Shown in pieces: positions 2,832 to 25,374 of a DNA stretch of 35,672 nucleotides (positions within the stretch are counted from its first letter, which is position 1; each line of letters begins with the position of its first letter). The stretch is from assembly GCA_004298435.1 (NCBI GenBank), contig SCSF01000159.1, positions 1-35,672 of the forward strand, in the 5' to 3' direction. The stretch comes from Beijerinckiaceae bacterium. GTDB taxonomy: Bacteria; Pseudomonadota; Alphaproteobacteria; Rhizobiales; Beijerinckiaceae. The notes beneath the pieces were generated by a model that had not been told where the DNA came from, did no database searches, and worked only from the letters and a program-made list of their open reading frames with translations. Both the position numbers and the translations under genes were made by a program.

Positions 2832-2964
2832 CGGGCCGTCGTGGCTGAACGGCCGTTGGCAAAAATCGTCAAGCTTCAGTTCAGCGTCGCTTCCTCTGCG
2901 TTAGCTGCTGTTTCGGCGACCATGACGATTTATGATTAATGAAGGCTTAACGGGATTCCCTATC

Positions 2965-3008
2965 GCGTTTTCGAGCGAAGTGGATTCCGGTTCGCGTGAA
3001 GAAAACGC
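2965..3008 (+). repeat. 44-nt intergenic repeat copy (family R1)
   Basis: gcgttttcgagcgaagtggattccggttcgcgtgaagaaaacgc; related copies at 2741..2784 (inverted) and 33609..33650 (degenerate). Confidence 0.85.
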
Positions 3009-3020
3009 ATCAAATAAATA

Positions 3021-3043
3021 ATCAGAACCGTTTCGGTTCTGAT
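3021..3043. repeat. Perfect palindrome, probable second half of compound repeat R1
   Basis: atcagaaccg-ttt-cggttctgat; 10-bp perfect arms; related hairpin at 22300..22326. Confidence 0.75.
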
Positions 3044-3597
3044 GGCTGATGCCAGCCGACGACGTTCAATCCCTTGTCAGCATCGAGCGCATGCGGCGCG
3101 GCGGCTATGAGCCCATGACTTTTCAGCACATCTTCAGGCGTTTTTGCGGGCACCTCGGGGAAGACAGGGCGACCGCCGGGCAGACGCAAGTTCGGCGCGC
3201 GCGACAGGTAAAAGGCACTGTAGTGCCCGAGGAAGAGGCCGAAGACTTCCGTGCCGCCGATGATGCCGAGAGCAGCATCCGGTTTGCCAAGTGTCTTCAG
3301 CACATCTTCGAGTGAAGCGCCTGTCGGATTCCAGAAAAACACATTCTCGGCGGAAGGGTCGGCTGCAATATCCACGATCCGCCGCGTCAGGACCACGCGC
3401 ATGCGCCAGTCTGAGTTCGGCTGGTGCTCATGCGAATGGCGTCCGTGAAAAACCACGTCGATGGCATCGAGCCGCCGTTCGAAGAAGCGCTTGTCCGCCT
3501 CGAATTCGAGCGACTTCGGCATGACGCCATGCGCATCGGCAATCATTCCGTCTTCGGAAACGATGGCGTAACCTTCGATGCGTCGCGGTTTGACCAT
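3022..3597 (-). CDS. Dihydrofolate reductase / RibD C-terminal domain family protein
   Basis: ORF 3022..3672; family homology appears to start near KPRRIEGYAIVSEDGMIAD, so ATG at 3597 is likely; DVVFHGRHSHEH, GIIGGTEVFGLFL motifs. Confidence 0.75.
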   Translation of the reverse strand: MVKPRRIEGYAIVSEDGMIADAHGVMPKSLEFEADKRFFERRLDAIDVVFHGRHSHEHQPNSDWRMRVVLTRRIVDIAADPSAENVFFWNPTGASLEDVLKTLGKPDAALGIIGGTEVFGLFLGHYSAFYLSRAPNLRLPGGRPVFPEVPAKTPEDVLKSHGLIAAAPHALDADKGLNVVGWHQPSEPKRF

Positions 3598-18700: not shown

Positions 18701-21361
18701 TTACGCGAGCGAGCGCTCCGCAATGTCCTGCACGTCGGGCGAAAGATGCGGAGCGCTGGCCACCCGTCGCAAAGCCTTTTCGGCCTGCTGGCGACGTTCG
18801 GCCTCGAAGATGCGCCAGCTCTTGAAGGTTGCGAGCATGCGCGCCGCGACCTGCGGATTCGTTGCGTTGAGGGCCAGAACGACTTCGACGAGCAAGTCGT
18901 AGCCGCTTCCGTCTTTCGCATTGAAGCGCGTCAGATTGCCCGCCGCGAATGCGCCGACGAGCGCCCGCACGCGGTTCGGATTGCCGAGCGAGAAGGCCGG
19001 ATGCTGCATCAGGCTTCGCACGCGCGCCAGCGTTTCCGTTTCAGGAATTGCCGCCTGCAAGGCGAACCATTTGTCGATGACCAGCGGCTCGTCCGCATAT
19101 TCGTCGTAGAAACCGGCAAGCGCAGCTTCGCGTTCGGGACCGGCCTTCGTTGCGAGCACGCCAAGCGCCGCGATCTTGTCCGTCATGCACCGAGCCTCGC
19201 TGAACTGCTGCAATGCGAGTTCCGGCGCACGATCCTTCTGTCCGGCAGTGTAGAGATCGAGCGCGGCGTTGCGGAGCGCGCGACGTCCGGCTGAGGCGGC
19301 ATCCGGCGAATAGGGCGCGGAATCCGTCAGCTTCCGGTAAGTGTCGAGAAGCGAAGCGGCAAGACCTGCCCCGACGGATTCGCGCAAGAGCTTGCGGGCT
19401 ACAAAAATGGCGTCAGGATCAACGTTCTCGCCGATCTCGCGGGCAATGTCGGCTTCACCCGGGAAAGTGACGATCTGCGCGGCAAGGGCAGGGTCTGCAT
19501 CGCTCGAGTCGAGCACGCGCCTGAGCGCTGCGATGAAATCCCTGTCAGGCTCGGGCGTCTCTCCTGCGCGCAAAGCGGCGATATTGTGCAGAAGCAGCCG
19601 CGTTGCGTAACTCTGCGCCGCCTGCCATCGATTGAAACTGTCCTTGTCATGCGCGATGAGCGTGACGAGATCAGCTTCACTGATGTCATAGGAAAGCCGG
19701 ACAGGCGCCGAAAATCCGCGCAAGAGCGAGAGGACAGGGCGGTTCGGCAGATTGTGAAATCTTACGCGGCGATGCTCCTCGGTCAGCTCGATCGTGCCAC
19801 GCTCGCGTTCCCGAGGCGTGGCGCCGTCATTATTTTCAGTCACAAGCGGCAGTGTCTCGCCGGTTTCACCAAGAAGGCCGAGTTCGACCGGGATAACGAC
19901 AGGCAGCTTGGTCTCCTGGCCTGGTGTCGGCTTGCAACTCTGGTGCAGGTCGAGTGTCAGGCTCCGGCTTGCGGCATCATAGCTTGCCGTCACTTCGAGA
20001 AACGGCGTTCCGGCCTGCGAATACCAGCGCAGGAACTGCCCGAGATCGCGGCCGGAAACGTCCGCGAAACAGCCGATGAATTCCTCGATGGTTGCCGCCG
20101 TGCCATCGTAACGCTCGAAGTAAAGATCCATGCCGGCGCGAAACGCCTCTGCGCCGATCAGCACCCTGAGCATACGGATGAGCTCGGCGCCTTTTTCATA
20201 GACCGTGGCGGTGTAGAAGTTGTTGATCTCGAGGTAGACCTCGGGGCGCACATTATGCGCGAGCGGGCCAGCGTCTTCGGGAAACTGCTGAGCCCGCAGG
20301 GTGCGCACATCGGCGATGCGGCGCACAGCCGCCGAACGCATGGCGGCCGAGAACGCGTGATCGCGAAAAACCGTCAGGCCTTCCTTGAGACAGAGCTGAA
20401 ACCAGTCGCGGCAGGTGATGCGGTTGCCGGTCCAGTTGTGAAAATATTCATGCCCGATGACGGCTTCGATCTGCGCGTAATCCGTATCGGTTGCTGTGCG
20501 CGGCGAGGCCAAAACATATTTGTCGTTGAAGACGTTCAGGCCCTTGTTCTCCATCGCGCCCATGTTGAAGTCCGAAACGGCGACGATATTGAAAACATCG
20601 AGATCATATTCGCGGCCGAAGGCTTCTTCGTCCCAGCGCATCGCGCGTTTCAGCGCGCCCATCGCATAAGTGGCGCTTTCCTCCTTGCCATGTTCGACAT
20701 GAATGCCGAGGGCGACCTTGCGCCCTGAGGCGGTGACGAATTCGTCATGGATCGAGCCGAGATCGCCGCCGACGAGAGCGAAAAGATAGCAGGGCTTGGG
20801 GAATGGGTCGTGCCAGACAGCGTAATGCCGGCCCGTACCTTCGACCACGCCGGTTTCCGTGCAGTTGCCGTTGCTCAGGAGCAGCGGCGCTTCGGCGAGG
20901 TCGGCCTCGATGCGGGTCGTATAGACGCTGAGCACGTCGGGCCGGTCGAGAAAATAGGTGATCCGGCGGAAACCCTCAGCCTCGCATTGCGTGCAATAGG
21001 CCGAGCCGGAGCGATAAAGGCCCATGAGGTGTGTATTGGCCGCGGGGTCAATCTCCGTCTCGATTTCGAGACTGAAGGGCCGCTGCGGTGGTTTTGCCAG
21101 CGTCAGTTGGTCCGGCGTGACAAAATTGGCGGCGGGATTGAGCTCCTTGCCGTCGAGAACAATGCGGCGCGCCTTGAGGCCGTCGCCGTCGAGCACGAGA
21201 TCAGCGCCGCTTCTGCCCTTTGGGTTGGGTCTCACCGCCAGCCGCGCCACGACGCGCGTCGCGTGCGTATCGAGCCTGAAGTCGAGGTCGACGGTGTCGA
21301 TCAGATAGTCTGGCGACCGGTAATCGGCGAGGCGGATTGGTTGGGCTGTGTCGGTACGCAT
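18701..21361 (-). CDS. pepN: Aminopeptidase N (M1 family)
   Basis: 886 aa; NMGAMENKGLNVFNDKYVLA, VIGHEYFHNWTGNRITCRDWFQLCLKEGLTVFRD. Confidence 0.97.
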   Translation of the reverse strand: MRTDTAQPIRLADYRSPDYLIDTVDLDFRLDTHATRVVARLAVRPNPKGRSGADLVLDGDGLKARRIVLDGKELNPAANFVTPDQLTLAKPPQRPFSLEIETEIDPAANTHLMGLYRSGSAYCTQCEAEGFRRITYFLDRPDVLSVYTTRIEADLAEAPLLLSNGNCTETGVVEGTGRHYAVWHDPFPKPCYLFALVGGDLGSIHDEFVTASGRKVALGIHVEHGKEESATYAMGALKRAMRWDEEAFGREYDLDVFNIVAVSDFNMGAMENKGLNVFNDKYVLASPRTATDTDYAQIEAVIGHEYFHNWTGNRITCRDWFQLCLKEGLTVFRDHAFSAAMRSAAVRRIADVRTLRAQQFPEDAGPLAHNVRPEVYLEINNFYTATVYEKGAELIRMLRVLIGAEAFRAGMDLYFERYDGTAATIEEFIGCFADVSGRDLGQFLRWYSQAGTPFLEVTASYDAASRSLTLDLHQSCKPTPGQETKLPVVIPVELGLLGETGETLPLVTENNDGATPRERERGTIELTEEHRRVRFHNLPNRPVLSLLRGFSAPVRLSYDISEADLVTLIAHDKDSFNRWQAAQSYATRLLLHNIAALRAGETPEPDRDFIAALRRVLDSSDADPALAAQIVTFPGEADIAREIGENVDPDAIFVARKLLRESVGAGLAASLLDTYRKLTDSAPYSPDAASAGRRALRNAALDLYTAGQKDRAPELALQQFSEARCMTDKIAALGVLATKAGPEREAALAGFYDEYADEPLVIDKWFALQAAIPETETLARVRSLMQHPAFSLGNPNRVRALVGAFAAGNLTRFNAKDGSGYDLLVEVVLALNATNPQVAARMLATFKSWRIFEAERRQQAEKALRRVASAPHLSPDVQDIAERSLA

Positions 21362-21696: not shown

Positions 21697-22263
21697 ATGA
21701 AAGCACGGAATACGGCGGCTCTGCGCATCGGCGGTATGATGCTCGGGATTTCGATGGCATCTGTGGCGATGCCCTATGTGGCTCTGGCCCATGGCCCCAC
21801 CCGGCAGAAGGTGACCGAGTCAGTCGAGATCAACGCGCCGGCCGCCAAAGTCTGGGCGACGATCGGCAACTTCCAGAATATGGCCTGGTGCGATGACGTC
21901 GCGAAAACGACGGGCACCGGCGGCAACGTGCCGAATACTGCGAACCGCGTCATAACATTGAAGAGTGGCGCGACGATCACGCAGGATCTCACCCGCTACG
22001 ATGCCAAGGAGATGAGCTACGGCTATTTCACCGACAAGATCGACATCAAGGTTCTGCCAGTGAACGACTATTCCGGCGAAATCAAAGTGATCCCCGAGGG
22101 GGCGAACAAAAGCAAGGTTTCCTGGGAAGCGGCTTTCTACCGCGGATATATGAACAATGATCCGCCGCCGAACCTCAGTGACGACGCTTCTCTCAAGGCC
22201 GTCACCAAATGGGTGCGGACAAGGCTTGATGGGCTCAAGACGAAGATGGAAGCGACGCACTGA
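21697..22263 (+). CDS. Secreted SRPBCC (MxaD-like) protein, paralog 1
   Basis: SD gggagg before ATG 21697; signal peptide ending VALA|HGPTRQK; SVEINAPAAKVWATIGNFQNMAWCDDVAKTTGTGG. Confidence 0.85.
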   Translation: MKARNTAALRIGGMMLGISMASVAMPYVALAHGPTRQKVTESVEINAPAAKVWATIGNFQNMAWCDDVAKTTGTGGNVPNTANRVITLKSGATITQDLTRYDAKEMSYGYFTDKIDIKVLPVNDYSGEIKVIPEGANKSKVSWEAAFYRGYMNNDPPPNLSDDASLKAVTKWVRTRLDGLKTKMEATH

Positions 22264-22292
22264 AGCGCCGCATGTCTGAATTGAGATAACCG

Positions 22293-22331
22293 GAGCCATT
22301 TCGGTTCTGATGAAATCAGGACCGAAGTTCT
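22293..22331. repeat. Hairpin repeat related to palindrome at 3021..3043
   Basis: gagccatttcggttctgatgaaatcaggaccgaagttct; ttcggttctgat / atcaggaccgaa stem with one wobble. Confidence 0.65.
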
Positions 22332-22365
22332 ATTTTCCCATTTTGAATTGAGGAGAGAATCCAGG

Positions 22366-22920
22366 ATGAAAAGCTCGCGTTTCGCTGCTTTGCTCATCGG
22401 ATGCGCTTTTGGGTCGGCGTTGCCGTCTCTCGCCCTCGCTCATGGCGCTTCGAGACTGAAACTGATCAAGTCCGTCGAAATCAACGCGCCGGCCGCCAAG
22501 GTGTGGAAGATCGTCGGCAATTTCGACAATATGGACTGGGTGCCGACTGTCGCGAAGACGGCGGGAACCGGCGGCGACAATCCCGATAACGCCAAGCGGG
22601 TCCTCACTCTCAAGAACGGCGGGAAAATCAACGAGTCGCTTTACAAATACGATCCCGACTCGATGAGCTATTCCTATTACATGGACCACGTTGATCTGAA
22701 GATTCTGCCCGTCACCAATTACTCTGCGACTCTTGTGGTGATACCGGAGGGGAGCAAGAGCAAGGTCGAATGGCGTGGCGCTTTCTTCCGTGGCGACCCG
22801 AATTTCGATCCGCCGCCTGCGCTCAATGATGATGCCGCAACGAAGGCTGTGACGAAGCTTTATGTTTCAGGCCTTACGTCGCTGAAGCAGAAGATCGAGG
22901 CCGGCGAGGCGATAAATTGA
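22366..22920 (+). CDS. Secreted SRPBCC (MxaD-like) protein, paralog 2
   Basis: Signal peptide ending LALA|HGASRLK; SVEINAPAAKVWKIVGNFDNMDWVPTVAKTAGTGG; clear paralog of 21697..22263. Confidence 0.87.
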   Translation: MKSSRFAALLIGCAFGSALPSLALAHGASRLKLIKSVEINAPAAKVWKIVGNFDNMDWVPTVAKTAGTGGDNPDNAKRVLTLKNGGKINESLYKYDPDSMSYSYYMDHVDLKILPVTNYSATLVVIPEGSKSKVEWRGAFFRGDPNFDPPPALNDDAATKAVTKLYVSGLTSLKQKIEAGEAIN

Positions 22921-23885
22921 GCCGCCTCGGCCATTTCGCCCGGCTGATCGCCGCAGCGGGCGTTTCTATCGGCTTCGTGGCGGTTGGTTCCGCACTGGCG
23001 GATGAAGCCTTCATCACTAATCAGAACGCCAATTCGGTCAGCGTGCTGGATCTGACGTCCAAAAAAGTCGTCGCGACGATTCCAGTCGCCGGCAAGCCTG
23101 CGGGAATTGCAATGTCGCGGGATGGCACCCGCGCCTATGTGACGAGCCCCGAGGGTCCGTATGTTTCGGTGATCGATACGGCGTCGCGCCGCGTGCTGCG
23201 CAAGTTTCCCGCGGGCAGGGACCCGTTGGGGATTGCTATCGACCCGACGGGCAAGTTCGTCTATGTCGCCGATTTCGACATACCGCATCTCTACAAAATC
23301 GACGTCAGCACGGGCAAGATCGTCGCCGACGCGCATGTCGGCAAATCGCCTTGCGGCGTTGCGGTGACCCCGAATGGAAAGCTGATTGTCGTTGCCGATC
23401 GCGATGACAATCAGATTTCGATTGTCGATGCCGCAACATTCAAACGGATCGGAGTCGTCAAGGTTGGACAGCATCCCTTCGGGCTGACAATCGATGCGGA
23501 AGGCAAGCGGGTCTACACGGCGGATGTCGTCAGCAACACCGTCTCGGTTGTGGATCTTGCCAGCCAGAAACTCATCGGCACCGTCAAGACCGGCCTGCGC
23601 CCCTATGTGGTCGCGGTGAACGGCAAATACGGCTTCTCGACCGACGAGTATGGCGGCACGGTCACCGTCTTCGATCTCAAGACGCTGAAATTCGTCAAGC
23701 GGATCAATGTCGGCGATTATCCGGAAGGCATTGAGTTCAGTTCCGACGGCAGCAAACTCTATGTCGCGAACTGGATGTCGGATGATGTCTGGGGCATCGA
23801 TGCGAAGACCTTCAAACCTGTCGCAAAAATAAAGGTCCAGGACGGCCCGCGGTCGTTCGGGACATTTATTCGCAAGACGCCGTGA
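22917..23885 (+). CDS. Secreted YVTN/YncE-type beta-propeller repeat protein
   Basis: 322 aa; TTG start overlapping upstream TGA (ttga); repeated blade units NANSVSVLDLTSKKVVATIPVAGKPAGIAMSRDGTRAYVTS...; signal-like N-terminus ending SALA|DEAF. Confidence 0.87.
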   Translation: MSRLGHFARLIAAAGVSIGFVAVGSALADEAFITNQNANSVSVLDLTSKKVVATIPVAGKPAGIAMSRDGTRAYVTSPEGPYVSVIDTASRRVLRKFPAGRDPLGIAIDPTGKFVYVADFDIPHLYKIDVSTGKIVADAHVGKSPCGVAVTPNGKLIVVADRDDNQISIVDAATFKRIGVVKVGQHPFGLTIDAEGKRVYTADVVSNTVSVVDLASQKLIGTVKTGLRPYVVAVNGKYGFSTDEYGGTVTVFDLKTLKFVKRINVGDYPEGIEFSSDGSKLYVANWMSDDVWGIDAKTFKPVAKIKVQDGPRSFGTFIRKTP

Positions 23886-24075: not shown

Positions 24076-25374
24076 TTACGCCTGCTGCTTCGGAAATGTC
24101 TCCATTGGCAGCGCAATCCTCGTCCGCACATAGAGGCTTGCCCCGATGTTGGCGACGCCGAGGCCAATGAGAAGGGCCGGTTCCGACAGGCCGATCAGCC
24201 GGCTCTGCAAAACCGCCGTGGCAAGCGTTCCGCCGACCATGAAGATCGCGTTGAGGCTGTTGATCGCAGCGATGATCCTTGCTCGCCGCTCGGATGGCGC
24301 CTCAGCCTGTATCGCGGCGAAGAGGGGCACGGCGTAAAAGCCGCCAGATGCGGCGAGGCCGGTGACATCGATCGCGATGCGCAGTCCCGCGCCGCTCGAA
24401 AAAAACGCGGCAAGCCCGATCTCGTGGCCGGGCGCTGCGACCAGCCCATGCGTCGCAAACCCGATTTCAATCAGAAAAAATGCCATGCCGAGCGCGGCGA
24501 CCGGCACCGGCGCCAAGGTGATCCGGCCATGCGCGAAACGCGCGGCTGCGAGCGAACCGCCGCCAATCCCGATCGCGAAAAGTGCGCTGATCGCCGCTTC
24601 GACATCGATGCCGCCGCCGGTTGCGTCGCGGACGACGATCGGCACGAGCGACAATGCGACAGCGCCTGTCAACCAGAACCAGGACAAGGCGAGGCCGCCG
24701 CGCCAGTCGAAAGGCCGGCGCCGGAGGTCCGCAAGAAGGGAGATGGTCGAGGCAAGAATATTGGGGTTGGACACGAGGCCGGACGCGGCCACTTTGGTCG
24801 CTGGAATGAAGCAACTCGTCGCGAAACAGGCAAGCGCGATGATTATGAGCTGGAACACTACGAAAAGCGGCGCGACCGTCGATTTGGCGGCGAGCGCGCC
24901 CGCAATCAGCCCGAGCAGAATTGCGAGAAAGGTTGCCGCCTCGACAAGAGCATTGCCGGCGACGAGTTCCGAACGCTCCAGGTGATCGGGCAGGATCCCG
25001 TATTTCAGCGGTCCGAACAGCGCCGATATGACTCCGAGGCCGAACAGCGCCAGATAGAGCAGGGGCAGGGACGCGAACCAGAGTCCCGCCGCCGCTGTCA
25101 TCTGGACGAGGATTTCGCCAGCCTTCAGCCTGCGGATGATATAAGCCTTGTCGTTTGCATCGCCGAACTCGCCGCCGAGGCCGGAGAGGATGATCGACGG
25201 CAGCATGAAGATGCCGATCGCCAGCGTTACCAATGCGCCGCTGTGCTGCGCTCCAAATCGGAACAGGAGCAGCATGGCGAGCATATTGCGCACGAAATTG
25301 TCGTTGAACGCCGAAAGGAACTGGCACCAGAACAAGGGTGCGAAACGGCGCGTGCGCAAAAGCTCGAGGAACAT
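24076..25374 (-). CDS. MFS transporter, LplT-like (lysophospholipid transporter family)
   Basis: 432 aa; RFAPLFWCQFLSAFNDNFVRNMLAMLLLF, ALFGPLKYGILPDHLERSELVAGNALVEAATFLAILLG. Confidence 0.88.
   Translation of the reverse strand: MFLELLRTRRFAPLFWCQFLSAFNDNFVRNMLAMLLLFRFGAQHSGALVTLAIGIFMLPSIILSGLGGEFGDANDKAYIIRRLKAGEILVQMTAAAGLWFASLPLLYLALFGLGVISALFGPLKYGILPDHLERSELVAGNALVEAATFLAILLGLIAGALAAKSTVAPLFVVFQLIIIALACFATSCFIPATKVAASGLVSNPNILASTISLLADLRRRPFDWRGGLALSWFWLTGAVALSLVPIVVRDATGGGIDVEAAISALFAIGIGGGSLAAARFAHGRITLAPVPVAALGMAFFLIEIGFATHGLVAAPGHEIGLAAFFSSGAGLRIAIDVTGLAASGGFYAVPLFAAIQAEAPSERRARIIAAINSLNAIFMVGGTLATAVLQSRLIGLSEPALLIGLGVANIGASLYVRTRIALPMETFPKQQA

Follow-up and report, generated by a model that had tools for sequence, protein, structure and literature searches.

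Methanol dehydrogenases and their accessory proteins

The lanthanide-dependent methanol dehydrogenase XoxF is usually described with xoxG and xoxJ as its sole partners; a long mxa operon serves the calcium enzyme. MxaD has been reported to stimulate the interaction of MxaFI with cytochrome cL in Methylorubrum extorquens (PMC7391723; PMC2577659), and in the published mxa gene order mxaE comes after mxaD (PMC6414531; PMC9291206). In M. extorquens AM1, transposon screening identified an 'MxaD homolog', META1p1771, without which cells do not reach full growth on methanol with La3+. Its deletion gives a growth rate of 0.11 against 0.16 per hour on methanol with La3+, a defect seen only with La3+ (PMC7391723). 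No description of the propeller partner or the taxonomic spread of META1p1771 was found in the literature, and no paper was found that describes a pair of SRPBCC protein and propeller as a XoxF module.

Here, a trio of two MxaD-like SRPBCC genes and one YVTN propeller gene is described from a Beijerinckiaceae genome. The SRPBCC and propeller genes form a conserved pair whose SRPBCC member has been duplicated repeatedly; their products are exported, judging by sequence, are sister to those of mxaDE and are co-distributed with XoxF5. The trio is probably (at roughly 0.7) a detached module of the mxaD-mxaD-mxaE type, dedicated to XoxF5.

Organization of the locus

The window is the whole 35,672-nucleotide stretch analysed, contig SCSF01000159.1 of assembly GCA_004298435.1. 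The initial annotation had placed two adjacent SRPBCC paralogs with signal peptides and a secreted propeller at 21697-23885, and all three genes lie where it put them. The features of the locus and its flanks are the following:

18701-21361, minus strand: pepN, the left neighbour conserved in Beijerinckiaceae copies (TIGR02414, 1199.9 bits; synteny); context, outside the module
21697-22263, plus strand: SRP1, exported MxaD-like SRPBCC protein, 188 aa, mature 157 aa and 17.3 kDa (Pfam, tree, AlphaFold2 fold)
21697-21789, plus strand: SRP1 signal peptide, predicted cleavage between ALA and HGPTRQK from the -3/-1 rule; motif conserved in alignments
22298-22328, no strand: perfect 14-bp hairpin between SRP1 and SRP2, a copy of a dispersed genome repeat
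22366-22920, plus strand: SRP2, second exported MxaD-like SRPBCC protein, 184 aa, mature 159 aa and 17.3 kDa (Pfam, tree)
22366-22440, plus strand: SRP2 signal peptide, predicted cleavage between ALA and HGASRLK, by sequence
22917-23885, plus strand: exported seven-bladed YVTN propeller, MxaE-like, TTG start (YVTN repeats, AlphaFold2, tree)
24076-25374, minus strand: MFS transporter resembling the transporter half of LplT/acyltransferase proteins, the conserved right neighbour (profile matches, synteny); context

SRP1 starts with ATG, directly 5′ of which stands AGGGAGGAAAAGG. The TTG start of the propeller gene (22917) overlaps the SRP2 stop (22920), and translation of the two is likely coupled. 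The hairpin lies within a palindromic element at 22293-22328 with the half-site GAGCCATTTCGGTTCTGAT, which has 49 copies in the genome at two or fewer mismatches, against 0 in the reversed control; it may separate the expression of SRP1 from that of SRP2. An Rfam search returned a tRNA as its sole match.

As the initial annotation had noted, no dehydrogenase, cytochrome or PQQ gene occurs among the roughly two dozen open reading frames scanned in the window, a scan that covers small frames only in part. The same annotation called the module an orphan. This is apt insofar as the trio lies away from a dehydrogenase, but the site is conserved in relatives: the slot between pepN and the MFS gene recurs in Methylocella and a USC-alpha MAG, and in Methylocapsa pepN alone is seen beside the module. 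The conserved flanks therefore indicate a stable detached position. META1p3908, an aminopeptidase of the AM1 screen, was considered as a counterpart of the pepN neighbour and ruled out, being a leucyl aminopeptidase.

The SRPBCC and propeller proteins

Both SRPBCC proteins match Pfam Polyketide_cyc2 (PF10604) with 96.0 and 103.5 bits (cut-off 27.4), and NCBIfam has no model for them. They share 52-55% identity, and every shared motif that had been quoted for them is present. With the signal peptides assigned by sequence, the mature masses are 17.30 and 17.33 kDa; the reported size of MxaD is likewise about 17 kDa. The AlphaFold2 model of SRP1 is confident and has a Bet v 1/SRPBCC fold (mean pLDDT 88.8 overall and about 98 within the domain), and the nearest solved folds in Foldseek are 3f08 and 3cnw ('XoxI'), with ABA receptors also among the closest. 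Ligand binding in a cavity is common among SRPBCC proteins. The His at the predicted mature N-terminus (His-Gly; 21790-21810 and 22441-22461) is invariant in 48 of 48 relatives and would allow a ligand or metal role, although it lies outside the SRPBCC core. Weak matches of SRP1 to alpha-hemolysin in the PDB were dismissed as chance.

The propeller carries seven TIGR02276 YVTN repeats (E 8.9e-62), and its AlphaFold2 model is confident, with a mean pLDDT of 93.6. Its nearest structure is the archaeal YVTN surface-layer propeller 1l0q (38% identity); the propellers of NirN/NirF, hydrazine synthase and quinohemoprotein amine dehydrogenase are distant structural relatives. Membership of TIGR03866 was also considered, and the protein is not filed there because its 187.7 bits fall below the cut-off of 287.3.

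Phylogeny and gene duplication

Homologues were sought in 100 genomes, namely the genome itself and 99 relatives, with matches of at least 140 bits counted as the window clade. The search also returned a second, weaker SRPBCC group at roughly 36-45% identity, whose members belong to mxa operons and lie several kb from mxaF-like genes; in one such locus (L070), mxaRSACKL-type genes stand between the SRPBCC gene and the mxaF-like gene. In 103 of 110 loci, the SRPBCC gene is directly followed by a propeller gene of the same strand. The seven loci lacking an adjacent propeller include two at contig ends and two with a propeller just past the cut-off.

In the SRPBCC tree (131 rows), the window clade is apart from, and sister to, MxaD of the mxa operon, and SRP1 and SRP2 are therefore filed as MxaD-like paralogues, not as MxaD proper. 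The propeller following mxaD in mxa operons is taken as MxaE by position, since mxaE follows mxaD in the published order. In the propeller tree (66 rows), these MxaE-position propellers form one clade with a support of 98, the window propeller falls outside it and LutB is a far outgroup. The same split in both trees indicates that the pair exists in two parallel versions, the mxaDE of the mxa operon and that of the window, and several genomes carry both. The 80 named loci come from Methylocapsa, Methylocella, a USC-alpha MAG, Methylocystis, Methylobacterium/Methylorubrum, Hyphomicrobium, Filomicrobium, Xanthobacter, Ancylobacter, Bradyrhizobium and a few others.

The trio is about 70% identical to its orthologues in the same genus. 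SRP1 and SRP2 each cluster with their own orthologues from two other genomes of that genus, so their duplication predates these species and both copies were kept. Since both copies and the propeller are retained there, SRP2 is not a lone recent duplicate. Two SRPBCC copies occur in 25 of the 110 loci. The tandem second copies of the Methylobacterium/Methylorubrum, Methylocystis-like and G044/L094 lineages branch in other parts of the tree. This suggests that tandem duplication took place several times independently, although the long branches of these copies call for caution.

A distant third MxaD-like protein of the SRPBCC family (L062 5208-5675; contig C114 of the genome itself, 2840-3331) is encoded about 2 kb from a fae paralogue. 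The C114 match had been flagged for an internal TAA; a pseudogene was rejected because that TAA is its terminal stop.

Association with XoxF

Across the 99 relatives, the SRPBCC window clade is present in 15 of 28 genomes with a XoxF5-like methanol dehydrogenase and in 1 of 71 without (Fisher p 2.4e-9, from counts uncorrected for phylogeny). The co-occurrence that had been proposed as a check is thus strong. Six genomes (G006, G010, G044, G060, G092 and G094) have the window clade and XoxF5 with no match to an mxa-type MxaF. The module is missing from 13 of the 28 sampled XoxF5 genomes and is therefore not strictly required. The lone clade genome without XoxF5, G054, has a diverged, fast-evolving SRPBCC gene (L055 7938-8495) between pepN and the MFS gene and no propeller, possibly a stage in the decay of the module.

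Physical linkage is seen in 13 of the 80 named loci (Hyphomicrobium-type), where xoxF lies 3.5-6 kb downstream of the SRPBCC-propeller pair. In Methylobacterium/Methylorubrum, the pair lies between lutA/B/E/F and formaldehyde-oxidation genes of the fae/mch/mtdB type; the neighbours on the lut side are a TIGR03863 LutA, a PedC-like permease and a LutB propeller. In M. aminovorans (L118), a close relative of AM1, the SRPBCC gene with HGPTRQK is the seventh gene before lutA. Since lutA is META1p1778, counting genes makes this SRPBCC gene META1p1771 and the propeller gene 1770. META1p1771 thus matches the window clade by gene order in a close relative, as distinct from the AM1 sequence itself, and a second SRPBCC copy adjoins there. 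In Hyphomicrobium-type loci, the interval between the pair and xoxF repeatedly holds a SoxYZ-like gene (L049 11237-12082 and L112 12761-13690, from a cluster of 10 loci).

In the genome itself (3.08 Mb, 165 contigs), XoxF5 is encoded twice, on contigs C40 and C44. The C40 protein scores 983 bits to the solved XoxF 6oc5, and a XoxJ-like gene follows this copy. The C40 gene (L060 7596-9503) contains a TAG in frame close to the start (QLK*ITPENVKHL), which marks a pseudogene, a variant or an assembly error, and the C44 gene runs off the contig end. lutA, lutB, lutE and lutF lie on contig C112 and pqqC on C149, and there are two fae genes. With XoxF5 twice, a XoxJ-like gene, lut, pqqC and fae, the genome offers the trio a plausible client elsewhere. 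No MxaF is among the matches in this genome, and no other PQQ alcohol dehydrogenase is among the strong ones. Searches for MxaI and AMO/pMMO also gave no match, but their control queries gave none anywhere either, so these proteins may still be present.

Possible functions of the trio

The trio is probably XoxF's own helper set, because its genes travel together and occur almost only where XoxF is present. The suggestion of the initial annotation, that these periplasmic proteins are accessory to a PQQ dehydrogenase whose gene lies elsewhere, is borne out by the XoxF5 genes on other contigs, by the co-occurrence and by the linkage to xoxF in other genomes. By analogy with MxaD on MxaFI, the SRPBCC proteins would act on XoxF in the periplasm, most likely promoting either its productive contact with cytochrome cL (XoxG) or its maturation. 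The propeller would be their obligate partner or scaffold.

The lut genes for lanthanide uptake beside the pair in Methylobacterium, the invariant predicted N-terminal His (48/48 sequences) and the cavity ligands of many SRPBCC proteins, with ABA receptors among the closest folds, would also suit a system that delivers or inserts PQQ or lanthanide. The SRPBCC cavity or the mature N-terminal His-Gly would carry the ligand, and the propeller would dock the apo-enzyme. Such a delivery role is unlikely, however, given that the reported role of MxaD is enzyme-cytochrome coupling (PMC7391723; PMC2577659) and that no lanthanide-binding motif was found by non-systematic inspection. A more specific form, in which the two SRPBCC proteins and the propeller make up a periplasmic complex that loads PQQ or lanthanide into XoxF via the invariant His, the tandem duplications reflecting a heterodimer, is quite doubtful.

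It is improbable that the client of the trio is a different periplasmic enzyme, of the PQQ or c-type electron-transfer kind, and that its link to XoxF reflects shared methylotroph ancestry. The XoxF5 genomes without the trio and the distant structural kinship with the NirN/NirF, hydrazine synthase and quinohemoprotein amine dehydrogenase propellers would fit this, but the linked xoxF in 13 loci, the placement of the pair near lut and C1 genes and the lack of another PQQ alcohol dehydrogenase among strong matches in the genome itself argue against it. That the trio is a functionless vestige of a former mxa operon might be suspected from the missing MxaF and the distance from any dehydrogenase. 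Such a relic is very hard to reconcile with intact frames, starts and signal peptides, with roughly 70% identity to same-genus orthologues, and with a clade that is distinct from MxaD/E of the mxa operon and coexists with it in several genomes.

If the trio does serve XoxF, the accessory functions that this enzyme seems to lack would come from a detached mxaDE-like set tracking it across Rhizobiales/Hyphomicrobiales. The propeller would then be an identified partner for the known growth phenotype of META1p1771, open to direct genetic test.

Comparison with known systems

XoxI from Bacillus cereus (3cnw) has the same SRPBCC fold and is among the top structural matches (TM 0.87 by target length), whereas the identity is 22-24%; it is known here from its structure alone. 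LutB, the PQQ-dependent catabolism-associated propeller (TIGR03866), is also an exported YVTN propeller of lanthanide methylotrophy. However, it is about 30% identical to the trio propeller and a deep outgroup, and the genome has a separate lutB.

MxaD and MxaE, from the operon of the Ca2+-dependent MxaFI, resemble the trio in the order of SRPBCC gene and propeller gene, the exported 17-kDa size, the HG mature N-terminus and homology in both trees. The trio differs in its 36-45% identity to them, its position as a sister clade outside the mxa operon, its occurrence without MxaF and its tandem SRPBCC copies. Unlike mxaD, which shares an operon with mxaF, it is flanked by pepN and the MFS gene in a genome with no MxaF found. 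META1p1771 of M. extorquens AM1, whose deletion slows growth on methanol with La3+, belongs by gene order to the same clade and locus type, although its locus adjoins lut and formaldehyde-oxidation genes and the trio occupies the pepN/MFS site.
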